NCBI RefSeq assembly: GCF_022482365.1
Contig: NZ_JAKVPE010000001.1
Span: 372,001 to 436,000 of the forward strand
Source of the DNA: Limosilactobacillus sp.
GTDB lineage: Bacteria; Bacillota; Bacilli; Lactobacillales; Lactobacillaceae
Length of the DNA: 64,000 nt
Reading direction: 5' to 3'
Each line of letters opens with the position of its first letter. Within the stretch, counting starts at the first letter, position 1. The notes beneath the pieces are model-generated. The model was not told the DNA's origin. It was given only the letters and a program-made list of their open reading frames with translations, and searched no databases. The position numbers were made by a program, and so were the translations under genes. Of the stretch, positions 10,948 to 57,685 are shown in pieces.

Positions 10948-11074
10948 ATTGCCAGGATTCCCAGTCTGGCGGCATTTTAGGGTGCCGGACAAAAAAAGTT
11001 GAATTTAAAAAGTGATTTTTGGCCATTTTCTCCGTATTTATTAAGTGAGCGATAAAAAAGAGGAGGAATGGAAA

Positions 11075-13222
11075 ATGCAACACAACAAATTCTACCACCG
11101 CTCAATGGTAAGCCTGCTTTCGGCAACTGCGCTGCTTGGCCTGGCAACGATGCCGGTCCTGGCTGAACAAAATGATGGGGATGCGAGCGCACCACCCGTT
11201 GCGACCCCGGCGGTTACATCGCCAGACAACACCGGTGAGCAGAGTGTGGCCCGAACTCAAAAGGTGACTCGAACTATCGAATATACTAACCCAATCACTG
11301 GTGAGCGGAAAGAGGCCGTTCAAACGGCAGTTCTGAAGTATGACCAGGATGGCAACCAGATTGATGCCGATGATGCTATTTGGCCCGAATTTTTTATGCC
11401 AAGTTTTGATGGCTATTTATGTGAATACTCGGTTGTGAGGGCACAAAAAATTACTAAGGACGATGTTCGGAGCTTGAAGTATTATCTAATTTATGCGAAG
11501 GAACATACAACTCCAGCTCAGAGTATCCTAAAACTAGTTGATATCAATCGACAAAATGTTGTCCCTGACATTAAAGTCAATTTTGCAGCAGATGAGATGG
11601 AAAAAATGATTGATCTACCAACTCCGCCAGCGGGATGGGAATACGTAAACGATTTACCCGCCAAGGTTCCCATTAGCCGTTATACTGCGCCCGTCGAATT
11701 AATGGTTCGCAAGAGTGCGCCGGCAGCAAGTCACCAGGAGACCAAGGAGCTGACCCGGCGGATTATTGTTCACCTGCCGAGTGGGGATAAGACCATTACC
11801 CAAAAGGTAACCGCTACCCGAACGGTTCAGACTGACCACGGTAAAACAACGACCGGTGAATGGCAGATTCCCGCTTTTGCGGAGTACAAGGCCCCGTCAG
11901 TTGATGGCTACGTGGCCGATCAACTGACGATTCCGGCCCAGCAGCTGGACCCAAATCAATTAACTGATCAGCTCGCTCCGGTGGAGATTCATTATCAAAA
12001 AGAGGAACCTGCTAAAGGCGATACCACCGGTGAACAACCAGACAAAACGGGAGATGACCAGTCGACCACTACTGACCCCGGTGACAAACAAACGGACCCG
12101 GAAACCAAGGATGAAGGGGTTGGCGACGACACCATAGACCCTGGTGATCAGCAGAAACCGGCTATCAAAGATGAAGGTGTCGGTGATGACACGATTGATT
12201 CAGGTGACATAAAACAGCCGGAGACCAAGGACGAAGGCAGCCAAACGGACCCAGACCCATCAACGAAGGACGAAGGTGTCGGCGATGATACTATTGATCC
12301 TGGCGAAACGGAACGACCTGGAACCAAGGATGAGGGTAGCCAGACAGATCCAACCCCGTCAACGAAGGACGAGGGTGTCGGCGACGATACCATTGATCCC
12401 GATGAAACGGCGCAGCCTGGAACCAAGGACGAGGGTAGCCAAACGGACCCAACGCCATCAACGAAGGACGAAGGTGTCGGCGACGATACTATTGATCCTG
12501 GCGAAACAGAACGACCTGAAACCAAGGATGAGGGCAGTCAGACGGATCCGACCCCGTCAACGAAGGACGAGGGTGCCAGTGATGACACCATTGATCCTGA
12601 TGAAATGAAACAGCCGGAGACGAAAGATGAGGGCAGTCAAACGGATCCGGTCGCCCCTCCGTCAACTACCGATGGAAGCAGCGATGACGCAGCTGCACCT
12701 GATGATAAACGGCCAACGGGAACTACAGACACTGGTAGTCAGACGGATCCAGTACCAACTACCAAGGACGAAGGTACCGAGACAGAGCCAGTTCCAAGCG
12801 TCGATCAGGGAACCCAGACTGATGATGCTGCAATTACGGATCGGGGAGCTTCGACCAGCAAAGGCAATCAGGAAAGTCAGACTGATGAACCTTCAAGTAC
12901 AATTCAGAAGAAGGTTGGCGAACAGTCAAAACCAAATGTTATGGATCAACAACCACAATCGGAAAACGATGGCCAAAATCAATCGATGACAGCGAGCCAA
13001 TCAAATGACGAGGTAGACCCGTTGGCCTTCCATGATCGCCTGAGCCAGCTGCAGGAGCCACTGACTGACTTGACGAAGGCAACGCCAAATCAAGACAAGC
13101 AGGGGCAAGATCAGCTGCCGCAGACCGGTAACCACCGTCAGCCGGCAACGTTGCAAGCACTGGTAGCCGCCGTTTGTGGACTGCTATTTGCCTGGTGGCC
13201 ATTACGAAAGAAGGGACAATAA
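11075..13222 (+). CDS. LPQTG-anchored surface protein with mucin-binding-like modules and acidic tandem repeats
   Basis: 715 residues. A Sec signal peptide is cleaved probably after ALA (residue 30). Two Mub-B2/MucBP-like modules follow, each opening with an R-T/R-I beta strand (TRTIEYTNPITGERKEAVQT and TRRIIVHLPSGDKTITQKVT) and a GY-containing second strand. Residues about 340-530 are a low-complexity acidic stalk of TKDEGVGDDTID / TKDEGSQTDPTPS units. The C-terminus carries LPQTG (about 681-685), a hydrophobic helix and an RKKGQ tail for sortase anchoring. Mucus binding is inferred from the modules. The ATG has AGGAGG 8 bases upstream, which decides against an in-frame GTG 30 bases earlier. 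The gene stands alone between DXS-like and the convergent epimerase gene. Confidence 0.88.
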   Translation: MQHNKFYHRSMVSLLSATALLGLATMPVLAEQNDGDASAPPVATPAVTSPDNTGEQSVARTQKVTRTIEYTNPITGERKEAVQTAVLKYDQDGNQIDADDAIWPEFFMPSFDGYLCEYSVVRAQKITKDDVRSLKYYLIYAKEHTTPAQSILKLVDINRQNVVPDIKVNFAADEMEKMIDLPTPPAGWEYVNDLPAKVPISRYTAPVELMVRKSAPAASHQETKELTRRIIVHLPSGDKTITQKVTATRTVQTDHGKTTTGEWQIPAFAEYKAPSVDGYVADQLTIPAQQLDPNQLTDQLAPVEIHYQKEEPAKGDTTGEQPDKTGDDQSTTTDPGDKQTDPETKDEGVGDDTIDPGDQQKPAIKDEGVGDDTIDSGDIKQPETKDEGSQTDPDPSTKDEGVGDDTIDPGETERPGTKDEGSQTDPTPSTKDEGVGDDTIDPDETAQPGTKDEGSQTDPTPSTKDEGVGDDTIDPGETERPETKDEGSQTDPTPSTKDEGASDDTIDPDEMKQPETKDEGSQTDPVAPPSTTDGSSDDAAAPDDKRPTGTTDTGSQTDPVPTTKDEGTETEPVPSVDQGTQTDDAAITDRGASTSKGNQESQTDEPSSTIQKKVGEQSKPNVMDQQPQSENDGQNQSMTASQSNDEVDPLAFHDRLSQLQEPLTDLTKATPNQDKQGQDQLPQTGNHRQPATLQALVAAVCGLLFAWWPLRKKGQ
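12101..12655 (+). repeat. In-frame tandem repeat array (99-bp period) in the surface protein stalk
   Basis: The segment CAACGAAGGA recurs at 12261, 12360, 12459 and 12558, exactly 99 bases apart. Each unit encodes 33 residues built from KDEGVGDDTID and KDEGSQTDP. Shorter 60-base partial units precede it from 12101. Units differ by a few substitutions (GETERP, DETAQP, DEMKQP), so unit number could vary between strains by slippage or recombination. Confidence 0.9.
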
Positions 13223-13265: not shown

Positions 13266-14618
13266 TTACCAACCCTCGTGAATTAGTTCTTCCGGTAATT
13301 CAATCCGATCATGCTCAAGGTCGTTGAAGACCTCATCAAGTATTTCGAAGGCCTGGTCAAGCAGCTGGCGACTAATTGTCAGTGGTGGTTGGAAACGCAG
13401 CACGTTTCCATGGAGCTTTACCATGATAACGCCCTTTTGAAATGCCCGGTAGATCACCTTAGCAGCCGCCGCAGGATCCGGTTCCTTAGTCTTGCGATCC
13501 TTCACTAACTCAATACCTCCATTTAATCCAAGGACCCGGATGTCCCCGATGCAGTGGTATTTATCGGCCAGCTTTTCAAACTGTTGCCTAGCGTATTCAC
13601 CATCGACCGCTGACTTGTGAACCAAGTCTTCGTCATCAATCACGTCCAACGTGGCAAGGGCCGCTGCGGCAACGACGGGATTTCCACCGGCAGTGAAAAC
13701 ATAGGCCGAGGTTTTCAGCGAATCCATGATTTCCGCGCTGCCTAAAACGGCACTCATTGGCAGGGCGCAGGCAAGTGACTTGCCCGTAGCCAAAAGGTCT
13801 GGAGTGATGCCAAAATGCTGGTAGGACCAGAATGTTCCGGTCCGGCCCAGGCCTTGGTTGATTTCGTCGACGGCAAACATGATGCCGTGGTCGTGACAGA
13901 AATTGTAGACTAGCTGAACGTACTCCTTCGGCGGGATGATGATCCCGGAATCGCCTTGAATTGGCTCCATGATGACTCCCGCGGTTTCCTCAACTGGCAG
14001 GTAGGTTTCAAAGGGGCGCTTGAAAGCTTCAAAGTAACGAGCGGCCACGTCATGCTCGCTTTCACCGGGACGCCGCCGGTAGAGGTTCGGGTAGGGAACG
14101 TGGACAACGTTAGGCAAGAGTGGCCCAATTTTGCGAATCATGTCAACGTCGCAAGCACCAGCAGTCAAGGCCCCGTAGGTTGAACCATGATAGGCGCCTT
14201 CATATGAAACAATGTAGGAGCGGCCGGTTGCGGCCCGGGAAAATTTAATCAACGCCTCGGTGGCATCCGATCCCGAAGTCCCATAAGCAACTTTCCCACG
14301 TCCATTTCCCGGGGCCAATGCGGCCAGCCGTGCGCCGAGTTTAACGCTGACGGGGTTCGTGAAGTAGCCAGCGTCGTAACCAATGAAGTTGTCGATCTGC
14401 TTCTTCATTGCCTCGACGACCTTGGGATGATTATGACCGATGTTCATGGCCGAATCACTGCCCAGGAGATCGATGTACTTTTTACCCTCGACATCGGTAA
14501 CGATTGAACCCCGCGCCGACTTAATGACGAGGTTAAAGTATTGGATCAGCTGCGTTTCCGCAATGTTTTGGTGGTTTTCGTGTACTAATTGATCCCCAAG
14601 TGTGTTTTCCCATGCCAT
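13266..14618 (-). CDS. PLP-dependent isoleucine 2-epimerase-like protein (class III aminotransferase fold)
   Basis: 450 residues of the class III aminotransferase fold. Visible features are SGSDATEALIKF, the His/Tyr of SYEGAYHGSTYG, PLP-nitrogen Asp251 in VDEINQGLGRTG and Schiff-base Lys280 in ATGKSLACALPMSAVLG. Generic annotation would be GABA aminotransferase. However, the length and long stretches (RKIGPLLPNVVHVPYP, FKRPFETYLP, GLNGGIELVKD) match what I recall of the Lactobacillus buchneri isoleucine 2-epimerase, which interconverts L-Ile and D-allo-Ile and acts on other branched residues. Epimerase is therefore the better call, pending alignment. GGAGG precedes the ATG. Divergent from the leader-controlled permease. 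Confidence 0.8.
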   Translation of the reverse strand: MAWENTLGDQLVHENHQNIAETQLIQYFNLVIKSARGSIVTDVEGKKYIDLLGSDSAMNIGHNHPKVVEAMKKQIDNFIGYDAGYFTNPVSVKLGARLAALAPGNGRGKVAYGTSGSDATEALIKFSRAATGRSYIVSYEGAYHGSTYGALTAGACDVDMIRKIGPLLPNVVHVPYPNLYRRRPGESEHDVAARYFEAFKRPFETYLPVEETAGVIMEPIQGDSGIIIPPKEYVQLVYNFCHDHGIMFAVDEINQGLGRTGTFWSYQHFGITPDLLATGKSLACALPMSAVLGSAEIMDSLKTSAYVFTAGGNPVVAAAALATLDVIDDEDLVHKSAVDGEYARQQFEKLADKYHCIGDIRVLGLNGGIELVKDRKTKEPDPAAAAKVIYRAFQKGVIMVKLHGNVLRFQPPLTISRQLLDQAFEILDEVFNDLEHDRIELPEELIHEGW

Positions 14619-14765: not shown

Positions 14766-14794
14766 TTGCATTCTTAATTTTCTCATAGTATTCT
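14766..14794 (+). promoter_or_regulatory. Promoter of the leader peptide-permease transcript
   Basis: TTGCAT (14766-14771), a 17-base spacer and TATTCT (14789-14794). The expected start near 14801 leaves about 33 bases before the leader-peptide ATG. Confidence 0.65.
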
Positions 14795-14833
14795 AATAGC
14801 AACGATACGAAAAGGGAATTGGAGGAATCAATC

Positions 14834-14917
14834 ATGCAATTACACAACCAATCAATTATTCATCAACTAACCTCCACCTCAACCACAACAACATTCACCG
14901 TGGTTGAGCACCTTTAA
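14834..14917 (+). CDS. Thr/Ser-rich attenuation leader peptide (27 aa)
   Basis: TTGGAGGAAT lies 8 bases before ATG and the frame runs 27 codons to TAA. The peptide contains TSTSTTTTFT at residues 13-22: seven Thr and two Ser codons in ten positions (ACC TCC ACC TCA ACC ACA ACA ACA TTC ACC). These codons lie on the first strand of a four-segment RNA structure, the arrangement of classical leader peptides such as ThrL. It should sense charged tRNA-Thr (possibly also Ser) and control the permease. Too short for ordinary gene finders; no independent function is expected. Confidence 0.85.
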   Translation: MQLHNQSIIHQLTSTSTTTTFTVVEHL

Positions 14918-15014
14918 GGTATTTTCAAAGATATGCTAATGAATGGCTATCCAAAGCGTCTCAACCACTGATCCACTTCGGCACTGGTTGACGGACGCAT
15001 TGGGTAGCTTTTTT
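14878..15014 (+). promoter_or_regulatory. Ribosome-mediated transcription attenuator upstream of the permease
   Basis: Four complementary segments are exact. Segment 1 is CTCAACCAC (14878-14886), inside the Thr/Ser codons. Segment 2 is GTGGTTGAG (14900-14908), the end of the leader frame. Segment 3 is CTCAACCAC (14960-14968), identical to segment 1. Segment 4 is TGGTTGA (14985-14991). The 3:4 hairpin extends to GCGTC/GACGC and GCTATCC/GGGTAGC and ends in six T (15009-15014), making an intrinsic terminator. Pairing 2:3 is the antiterminator. A ribosome stalled on Thr codons covers segment 1, frees segment 2 and lets the permease be transcribed. The regulatory logic is inferred; the complementarity is seen directly. 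Confidence 0.85.
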
Positions 15015-15039
15015 CGTACCAAGAAATGGGGTTATAGAG

Positions 15040-16431
15040 ATGGATAATTCAGAAAATGTCAAGTTAAGGCGGACGATGACTCCCGGTCAGATGGAAATGA
15101 TTGCCATTGGGGGAACGATCGGGAGTGGGCTCTTTATGGGGGCAACCTCAACGATTAAGTGGACCGGCCCATCCGTATTACTCGCTTATGCCTTCGTCGG
15201 CCTGGTGCTGTATGGGGTCATGCGGGCGCTGGGTGAAATGATCTACATTAGCCCAGGCACCGGCTCCTTTGCCGACTATGGTTCCAAGTACATTCACCCA
15301 ATGGCCGGCTACCTGACGAAGTGGAGCAACGTCTTCCAGTTCATCATCGTCGGAATCTCGGACATTATTGCCATGAGTCAGTACCTGAACTACTGGTGGC
15401 CGAACCTGCCGGACTGGATTTCTGGCCTGGTGATGATCACGATTCTGACCCTCGCCAACCTGGCCTCGGCCAAAGCCTATGGGCGGCTCGAATTCTGGTT
15501 TGCCATGATCAAGGTGGTTACGATCATCACCATGATCATCCTGGGGCTGCTGGTCATCGTCCTCGGGCTCGGGAACAACTGGCACCCCGTTGGAATTTCT
15601 AACCTATGGAAGCACGGTGGCTTCTTTACTGGCGGTTTCATGGGCTTCATGTTCTCGCTGTCCGTGATTGCCGGTTCCTACCAGGGGATCGAGCTGCTGG
15701 GGATTACCGCTGGTGAAGCGGCTTCCCCACGTCACGCGATCATTAAGTCCGTTAAGTCCGTTATCTGGCGGATCCTGATCTTCTACATCGGTGCGATCTT
15801 CGTCATCGTTTCGATTTACCCGTGGAACCAGCTGAGTGCCGTGGGTTCACCATTCGTTGAAACCTTTACCAAGGTCGGGATCACCGGTGCGGCTGGAATC
15901 ATTAACTTCGTTGTGCTGACGGCGGCACTGTCCGGTGCCAACTCCGGGATCTACAGTGCCAGCCGGATGCTGTTCAAGCTGTCAATCGACGGCGAAGTGC
16001 CAAAGATCTTCTCGAAGCTGTCCAAGCGGGTCGTGCCAAACGTGGCCATCCTGACGATTTCATTCTGGATCTTCCTCGGCTTTGCAGTGAACATGCTGTT
16101 GAACGCCTTCAGTCCTAGTGCCAAGAACATCTTCGTGATTGTCTACAGTTCCAGTGTTCTGCCCGGGATGGTGCCATGGTTCATTATCCTGCTGTCCGAA
16201 TTAAACTTCCGGAAGCAGCACCCAGAAAAGCTGGAGAATCACCCATTCAAGATGCCACTCTACCCGGCCTACAACTACTTCAGCCTGGCTGCCTTGACGA
16301 TCATCTTGATCTTCATGTTCTTCAACCCAGATACCCGGGTTTCCGTATCCGTCGGGGTTATCTTCCTGATTATCATGAGTCTGATCTACAAGTTCCACAC
16401 CTCAAAGAAACTTGCCAGTGTTAATGACTAA
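15040..16431 (+). CDS. APC-superfamily amino acid permease, probable threonine/serine importer
   Basis: 463 residues and about 12 transmembrane helices. The family hallmark lies in helix 1 (MIAIGGTIGSGLFMGATSTI), followed by GEMIYISPGTGSFADYG and the helix 6 region (IAGSYQGIELLGITAGEA). It belongs to the AAT/YbxG-like branch of proton-coupled amino-acid transporters. Substrate cannot be read from the sequence, but the leader peptide's run of Thr and Ser codons points to threonine, possibly also serine. The start codon follows a weak GGGG-type ribosome binding site, 26 bases after the attenuator T-run. It is followed by its own terminator. Confidence 0.88.
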   Translation: MDNSENVKLRRTMTPGQMEMIAIGGTIGSGLFMGATSTIKWTGPSVLLAYAFVGLVLYGVMRALGEMIYISPGTGSFADYGSKYIHPMAGYLTKWSNVFQFIIVGISDIIAMSQYLNYWWPNLPDWISGLVMITILTLANLASAKAYGRLEFWFAMIKVVTIITMIILGLLVIVLGLGNNWHPVGISNLWKHGGFFTGGFMGFMFSLSVIAGSYQGIELLGITAGEAASPRHAIIKSVKSVIWRILIFYIGAIFVIVSIYPWNQLSAVGSPFVETFTKVGITGAAGIINFVVLTAALSGANSGIYSASRMLFKLSIDGEVPKIFSKLSKRVVPNVAILTISFWIFLGFAVNMLLNAFSPSAKNIFVIVYSSSVLPGMVPWFIILLSELNFRKQHPEKLENHPFKMPLYPAYNYFSLAALTIILIFMFFNPDTRVSVSVGVIFLIIMSLIYKFHTSKKLASVND

Positions 16432-24611: not shown

Positions 24612-24644
24612 AAGAAAAAACGACCAGGGAAATTCGCCTGGTCG
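24612..24644 (-). terminator. Riboswitch expression-platform terminator
   Basis: Minus strand: CGACCAGG and CCTGGTCG stem followed by TTTTTT. It lies between the TPP aptamer and the cytX start. Confidence 0.85.
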
Positions 24645-24649
24645 CCACT

Positions 24650-24737
24650 TTTGATCCCTTCGCTGGCATTATCCGAATCAGGTTCAATGGGTCGAGACGC
24701 GCAGTCTCCTCTCAGCCTGTTTGCAAGCTCCCCGTTA
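24650..24737 (-). promoter_or_regulatory. TPP (THI-box) riboswitch
   Basis: On the minus strand, GGGGAGC, then CTGAGAGGAGACTGCG, then GACCCATTGAACCTGATTCG and GATAATGCCAGCGAAGGGA. The CTGAGA, ACC..TTGAACCTGAT and GGATAATGCCAGCG..GGGA blocks are diagnostic of the thiamine pyrophosphate aptamer. With the following terminator it should shut off cytX when TPP is plentiful. Confidence 0.95.
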
Positions 24738-24927
24738 TTTATTTCACTTTTAACATAGCAGATCTAAGTAATTTGTCAACCACAGTTAGTCATTGAGATG
24801 TTAGCAGCAATTTACTTTAACTAAATTCAAAACTAAAACAATAAAAAAGAACAGCCAAAACTTGAAAAATCGCGCTAAATCAACGAAAATAATGATAAAT
24901 ACACCAGAAAAGTAAAGGATAACATTT

Positions 24928-57396: not shown

Positions 57397-57685
57397 CAAA
57401 AAAACGTCCCTAGAAAAAGCATTCACTTCTTCTAGGGACGTTGGAAACGTGTTACCACCCTAATTTAACCAGGCTTTACAACCTGATCCTCTGTAAGTAC
57501 ACCCGCAGGTAAACCTAGGCGAGGTAACGATCGCCAGTCGGGAACCACTTACCATTGCTCGCGGTTCTTGATTTGCTCCAAGACCATCTTCGTGCTTCTC
57601 TGTAGTACCAGTTCTCAGCTCGTCCGGCTCTCTGTAAATACGCTGAAGCATTACTCATCTTTTCTCAGCATTTTCTAATTGAATT
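57397..57685 (-). promoter_or_regulatory. T-box riboswitch, Met specificity
   Basis: On the minus strand: stem I with AGAGAGCCGG and GCTGAGAACTGG, a candidate specifier ATG (57587-57585) in CGAAGATGGTC, and the T-box core AATTAGGGTGGTAACACG (57465-57448). A terminator AACGTCCCTAGAAGAAG / CTTTTTCTAGGGACGTT with T-run ends at 57397. Uncharged tRNA-Met would bind and prevent termination, turning on the MetE-like and cyclase genes. The T-box is certain; the Met specifier is fitted by eye. Confidence 0.93.

Follow-up and report, generated by a model that had tools for sequence, protein, structure and literature searches.

The feature described here lies in a 64,000-nucleotide stretch of a Limosilactobacillus genome (the window), directly upstream of a gene for an amino-acid permease. 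The best NCBIfam model for the permease is ThrP (NF047867), matched with 565.7 bits and thus below the cut-off of 850; the next models are PRK10746 (560.5 bits, of the same length as the ThrP model), ProY (405.7 bits) and a D-serine/D-alanine/glycine transporter (381.6 bits), and Pfam AA_permease matches with 355.5 bits. Judged by these scores, the protein is a relative of ThrP and, by the curated cut-off, no member of that family. Divergent from the permease, positions 13266-14618 (minus strand) encode a class III aminotransferase that passes the cut-off of its NCBIfam model (PRK08593, 617.4 bits, cut-off 570); there is also a match, below cut-off, to a model for leucine/methionine racemases, and by these matches the product may be an amino-acid racemase. 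Beyond it, positions 11045-13222 (plus strand) encode a 725-residue repeat protein with several near-identical KDEGVGDDTIDPG-like repeats and an LPQTG-type anchor at its end, and elsewhere the window holds a TPP riboswitch (24638-24744, minus strand).

Table 1. Elements of the leader region and the permease gene, with positions in the window and the basis of each assignment.
Feature	Position	Strand	Basis and remarks
Probable promoter, TTGCAT, 17 nt, TATTCT	14767-14795	+	Sequence
Shine-Dalgarno GGAGG of leader ORF	14821-14825	+	Sequence
Leader ORF (MQLHNQSIIHQLTSTSTTTTFTVVEHL)	14834-14917	+	27 codons, ATG 14834, stop TAA 14915-14917; sequence read, Thr run conserved in relatives
Segment 1 (CTCAACCAC)	14878-14886	+	Within Thr codons; sequence; folds with segment 2
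Segment 2 (GTGGTTGAG)	14900-14908	+	Close to end of leader ORF; pairs with segment 1 or 3
Auxiliary hairpin GATA-GCTA...TGGC-TATC	14930-14951	+	Predicted fold alone; holds outer 5' arm of terminator in the antiterminator fold
Intrinsic terminator	14945-15014	+	Long hairpin 14945-15009, T-run (six T) 15009-15014; contains segment 4
Segment 3 (CTCAACCAC)	14960-14968	+	Inner 5' arm of terminator; antiterminator partner of segment 2; 2:3 covariation
Segment 4, TGGTTGA	14985-14991	+	Sequence
Amino-acid permease, 463 aa, nearest ThrP (threonine/serine APC transporter)	15040-16431	+	NCBIfam, Pfam; ATG 15040

A short open reading frame precedes the permease (Table 1). An earlier note on this DNA had described it as a frame of 27 codons with seven Thr and two Ser codons in ten positions, and the sequence bears this out: codons 13-22 read ACC TCC ACC TCA ACC ACA ACA ACA TTC ACC, the remaining codon being Phe. 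Among open reading frames of 10-60 amino acids in the window, seven Thr in ten codons is unique to this one, if its own longer version starting at TTG 14819 is left aside, and six in ten are reached in one further region. The probable promoter is absent from the list of a consensus promoter scan, and a simple terminator scan returned nothing in the leader region, missing the terminator of Table 1 because its stem is interrupted.

In the transcript, the identical segments 1 and 3 compete for segment 2. All four segments and the six T are present as previously described, as is the 3:4 hairpin, but the latter is merely the inner part of a longer stem that spans 14945-15009. This stem has a folding energy of -35.0 kcal/mol (z -6.85, with 0 of 200 shuffles equally stable), and leader and terminator together (14834-15020) fold with a z of -5.29, likewise with 0 of 200 shuffles as stable. 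In predicted folds of the nascent RNA to 14980, in which the extent of RNA masked by the ribosome is an assumption, a free leader forms 1:2 and leaves segment 3 open; masking to 14889 or 14895, as by a ribosome on the Thr codons, leads to 2:3 (-20.6 and -20.5 kcal/mol), accompanied by the small auxiliary hairpin; and masking to 14928, as by a ribosome that has reached the stop codon, hides segment 2 and leaves only weak structure (-6.4 kcal/mol), so that the terminator can form. The 2:3 pairing is still favoured in the predicted fold of a transcript ending at 14990, and from 15000 on the terminator stem is favoured. Equilibrium folding at full length, with the leader masked, gives the terminator -42.7 kcal/mol versus -27.3 with 2:3 forced; because the terminator outcompetes the antiterminator at equilibrium even with the leader masked, the switch must act kinetically, during transcription.

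A search for the permease covered 50 Limosilactobacillus genomes, the window's own included, and the upstream regions of 45 full-length orthologues (30 loci plus 15 fetched later) were examined; the other five genomes, without an intact orthologue, hold a paralogue (G017, G025, G040), a more distant homologue (G024) or a fragment (G041). A Thr-run leader with a Shine-Dalgarno sequence, an SD-like motif being a requirement of the search, precedes 41 of the 45 genus orthologues (29/30 and 12/15), some of these leaders being degenerate, and is absent from four (L026, L043, L053, L054). At L026 the leader is missing and the permease is immediately preceded by the 3' end of a gene for an LPQTG protein; displacement of the leader was considered and rejected, its core being found nowhere else within that locus. 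A similar LPQTG open reading frame stands upstream of the leader in L020. At L043, which like L084 belongs to Limosilactobacillus caecicola, an inverted repeat survives together with a terminator-like hairpin, and the frame of Thr codons is lost, as read by eye, and the region is possibly a decaying attenuator.

A collection of named species, considered for the best 80 of 117 relatives and possibly lacking records close to the window's own genome, extends this distribution. Within those 80, named Limosilactobacillus species carry the leader, the highest permease identity being that of L. kribbianus (98%), with L. caecicola (L084) lacking it, and it also precedes the permease at 5/6 Ligilactobacillus, 2/2 Weissella and 1/1 Pediococcus loci. 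The survey yielded 53 unique leader sequences, near-copies among them, all found by requiring a Thr/Ser run. At least five Thr in ten codons occur in 47 of the 53 and only three or four Thr codons in the other six; a hairpin followed by at least four T is present in all 53. A loose promoter pattern (TTGNNN, 16-18 nt, TANNNT) likewise lies upstream of the leader in 53/53, the listed match standing at another register in at least two of the printed leaders (L027, L100). The earlier note had looked to homologous regions as the place where its reading could fail, and these keep both the Thr codons and the pairings across four genera. Because it is conserved in relatives, chance is excluded as an explanation of the leader: the leader with its Thr run is real.

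Seven places with an exact core pattern of the Thr run were found across 395 genomes of the order, every one of them before the permease gene; the pattern is strict and describes the Thr leader only, leaving unmatched, for example, genome G029, whose leader is seen in L037. That the same Thr leader also serves other genes was rejected on the basis of these seven places. No leader was found on the 69% identical paralogue in the same genome (L002), nor in five paralogue upstream regions (L055-L059).

The pairings were compared with dinucleotide shuffles and with pairings swapped between relatives. The 2:3 duplex beats its shuffles at the 5% level in 48 of the 53 unique leaders, the exceptions being L094, L095, L096 and L100 together with L049, in which the Thr run is kept and 2:3 is not detectable (p 0.85); 1:2 does so in 33 of 53. 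For the swap test L045 and L049 were dropped, and the remaining 51 were thinned by k-mer similarity to 30 representatives, swapped pairs being given equal freedom in the choice of window. Own 2:3 pairs averaged -15.94 versus -13.23 kcal/mol for swapped ones, with 0 of 20,000 permutations as good (relatedness uncorrected), and own pairing exceeded the median swap in 28/30 representatives. The control pairing 1:3 gave no significant effect (p 0.20), which argues that relatedness alone does not cause the 2:3 result. For 3:4, own pairs reached -29.39 versus -17.42 kcal/mol when swapped, again with 0 of 20,000 permutations as good (27 representatives), and for 1:2, which is almost invariant, p was 0.041, with own pairing better than the median swap in 12/30.

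Pair counts, made on 27 of the 30 representatives (L041, L088 and L093 were left out because their anchor was wrong), point the same way for 2:3. With the windows of segments 1 and 3 picked for best complementarity, so that percentages lean towards pairing, 2:3 pairs in 75.7% of cells versus 27 to 50% after a shift of 1-3 positions, and 1:2 in 68.5% versus 25 to 53%. Of the 14 positions of 2:3, seven show changes on both sides, versus 2 to 6 when slid; examples are a G-C to C-G change two bases before the GGTTG core and an A-T to G-C change right after it, each in five sequences. In 1:2 such changes occur at three positions, not above the slid registers (0 to 3), and because 1:2 hardly varies, covariation barely tests it. 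Of the check proposed in the earlier note, covariation of all three pairings with retained Thr codons, most is thus borne out: by these comparisons 2:3 and 3:4 covary across lineages and the Thr codons are kept, but 1:2 shows little covariation.

Thr accounts for 29% of residues over the 53 leaders (initiator Met excluded), encoded by 180 ACC, 125 ACA, 34 ACT and 8 ACG codons. This bears on the idea that something other than translation of the Thr run is the signal, the element being an antiterminator of an RNA-only or protein-dependent kind or the frame coding for a functional small protein. The pairing core alone would indeed impose part of the repeated ACC/TCA spelling, but Thr codons are kept outside that core with all four codons in use, and the remainder of the leader peptide varies. 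An Rfam search of the site up to E 10 speaks against such a form as well, with seven matches only, all below the gathering score (E 0.79 to 8.5), and there is only the slenderest chance that it is correct. A T-box (RF00230) or other Rfam element as the identity of the leader was likewise rejected, neither matching at the site; the T-box model does match elsewhere in the window, at 57431-57675 (minus strand). RF00506, the Rfam family for the Thr leader of proteobacteria, was not among the matches at the site up to E 10, and no sequence relation to the proteobacterial attenuators was found.

More distant homologues of the permease are preceded by a different kind of element. None of 37 loci at 58.6-66.7% permease identity (L101-L139 minus L109 and L111) has a Thr-run leader, a T-rich open reading frame far upstream in L123 (-350) not being counted. 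An Rfam T-box search, run on 34 of the 37 (without L129, L136 and L138), found a T-box close before the permease at 12 loci, scoring above the gathering score at eight of them and below it, with E values of 9.4e-15 to 7.7e-12, at the other four (L106, L125, L139, L133). The remaining 22 show no T-box at the thresholds used, a count in which T-boxes may be missed because the laxer threshold covered only 11 of the 34 loci. Specifier codons were placed by the known rule for T-boxes. All nine read from Rfam alignments, that of L106 among them, are ACU, and by eye L133 reads ACU and L139 ACC; for L125 the strict alignment column gives UAC, and alignment to L108 and L120, with which it shares a GAAAG/CUUUC stem, gives ACU, the reading taken. 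The specifier thus reads as Thr in 12 of 12 T-boxes, one (L125) with a caveat of register.

Taken with the anatomy of the region, these observations indicate that the leader is very probably a ribosome-mediated transcription attenuator sensing charged tRNA-Thr and controlling a probable threonine importer. An open reading frame with a Shine-Dalgarno sequence, a Thr run, an intrinsic terminator and a 2:3 antiterminator that at the sequence level is under selection are all present, and the 1:2 protector or pause hairpin folds in the window and is almost invariant among relatives. With sufficient Thr, the ribosome would reach the leader stop and cover segment 2, leaving segment 3 free for the 3:4 terminator, which would halt transcription ahead of the permease. 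When Thr is short, the ribosome would stall at the Thr codons and cover segment 1; 2:3 would then pair, the terminator would be blocked and the permease transcribed. Without translation 1:2 would form, making termination the default.

An open reading frame, antiterminator and terminator would serve any stall alike, and the bmrCD attenuator of Bacillus subtilis is ribosome-mediated and drug-induced in the available part of its description (PMC4191407), so that the leader might instead respond generally to slow translation or to drugs that target the ribosome, like the bmrB or erm leaders, with the Thr run doing no more than mark a slow stretch. Such a role is highly improbable, given the predominance of one amino acid in the leaders, the resemblance of the permease to ThrP and the T-boxes, read as Thr, of its homologues. 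A joint sensor of threonine and serine has somewhat more in its favour, with two Ser codons inside the run, at least one Ser somewhere in 53/53 unique leaders, and a relative, Escherichia coli ThrP (YifK), that carries Thr and, at lower affinity, Ser according to the available text of PMC10070963. It is nevertheless unlikely, given the Thr reading of the 12 T-boxes and the fate of the Ser codons. In Ligilactobacillus, Weissella and Pediococcus leaders a Thr codon stands in place of the window's TCC, so that of the two Ser codons just the TCA in the pairing core is left, and in L034-L038, L040 and L086 the TCA position is Thr (ACA) and only the upstream TCC is kept; because none of the Ser positions is retained in every relative, the leader probably does not sense Ser.

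Threonine as the amino acid sensed by the attenuator, and as the likely substrate of the transporter, had been proposed in the earlier note and gains support both from ThrP as the nearest model and from the T-boxes before homologous permeases. For this permease family, which occurs in lactobacilli of gut and food and which NCBIfam can assign no more closely than to the neighbourhood of ThrP, the leader thereby indicates a signal and a likely substrate. Auxotrophy of the organism for Thr was considered as well: the thrB and thrC families have only matches below cut-off in the window's own genome, and such weak matches could be divergent members. The same genome contains 30 T-box matches, 11 above cut-off, and among so many T-boxes the leader is the exception. 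Before a 39% identical permease in this genome (L003, 1264-1443) stands a weak T-box (46.9 bits, below the gathering score).

The relationship between the two kinds of control can be followed on a permease tree of 86 rows, from which L141, L143, L144 and L145 were left out as copies, and on which the leader label was set by hand for L074, L080, L085 and L088 (fewer Thr) and removed from L123. All leader-bearing permeases fall into one clade of 51 rows with support 100/100, consisting of 45 leader rows and six without a leader, namely the paralogue group L002, L101, L102 and L104, and L114 and L084. The label needs four changes on the tree, which a single gain with three losses would explain, and the starred branches force at least three changes. 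Outside the leader clade lie the T-box rows, from Liquorilactobacillus, Leuconostoc fallax, Periweissella, Apilactobacillus and Ligilactobacillus ubinensis; L133, labelled 'none' on the tree because its T-box was found later, branches as the sister of the leader clade, weakly supported (86/47). Since the leader-bearing permeases form one well-supported clade, the Thr leader probably took the place of a Thr T-box at the same gene, the direction of change depending on the midpoint root and the weak L133 branch. On balance it appears reasonably likely that, within one family, a tRNA-Thr T-box before a threonine permease gave way to a protein-coding leader reading the same signal, charged tRNA-Thr, by way of a stalled ribosome. 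If so, input and target gene stayed unchanged while the sensor machinery changed, yielding a natural before-and-after pair of switches, and in such an exchange of regulators with the same signal and the same gene the dynamics could be compared in the laboratory.

Attenuators of the ThrL, TrpL and HisL type are proteobacterial; they have a short leader, in which regulatory codons follow one another, and four segments whose pairing is decided by the position of the ribosome. The Thr leader described here has in common with them the codon run, the four segments and the 1:2, 2:3 and 3:4 pairings, and differs in its target, which is a permease and not a biosynthetic operon. The earlier note's view that such attenuators are mainly proteobacterial needs amending, for amino-acid attenuators are in print for the Bacillota (PMC5864092, PMC5794164, PMC2965389, PMC9413887, each as far as its available part goes). 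Rli60 of Listeria monocytogenes, an ilv-leu attenuator tested with leader and hairpin mutants, is also ribosome-mediated and from the Bacilli, but concerns branched-chain amino acids and a biosynthetic operon, not threonine and a transporter (PMC5864092, available part). The Leu-rich ilv attenuator of Staphylococcus aureus likewise combines leader peptide, terminator and antiterminator in the Bacillota, and in the accessible portion of its description (PMC5794164), which cites predictions in the Lactobacillales Lactococcus lactis and Streptococcus, it differs in responding to leucine/isoleucine, in governing a biosynthetic operon and in being combined with CodY.

Closer in kind are the His leaders, which like the Thr leader are one-amino-acid leaders standing in place of a T-box or repressor and differ in the amino acid. 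The parts of two papers at hand name them in bacilli, along with leaders replacing T-boxes in Firmicutes (PMC2965389), and place them in the Bacillus cereus group, Peptostreptococcaceae and Erysipelotrichaceae, with T-boxes for His genes in Lactobacillales (PMC9413887). A Thr-specific T-box on an APC transporter, the SteT orthologue, reported only from the Bacillus cereus group in the available part of PMC2494555, resembles the leader as a Thr-sensing control of an APC-family transporter, but concerns a different APC protein and is a tRNA-binding RNA without a leader peptide. Attenuators of this kind in Bacillota and switching between T-box and leader are therefore known already. Among the literature matches listed, the scope of which left aside subscription papers and supplements, no Thr leader in lactobacilli was found, and as far as these searches reach the threonine case, the transporter target and the same-amino-acid swap are new. 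The mechanism of this conserved threonine-coded attenuator is ordinary, its lineage and target are less usual, and it gives the Lactobacillaceae a well-conserved attenuator for an amino acid, in a genome otherwise rich in T-boxes.

Codons 13-14 of the run (14870-14875) read ACCTCC, an anti-Shine-Dalgarno sequence, and in some predicted folds this stretch pairs with the Shine-Dalgarno region of the permease, a pairing that could mean an additional, translational layer of control.
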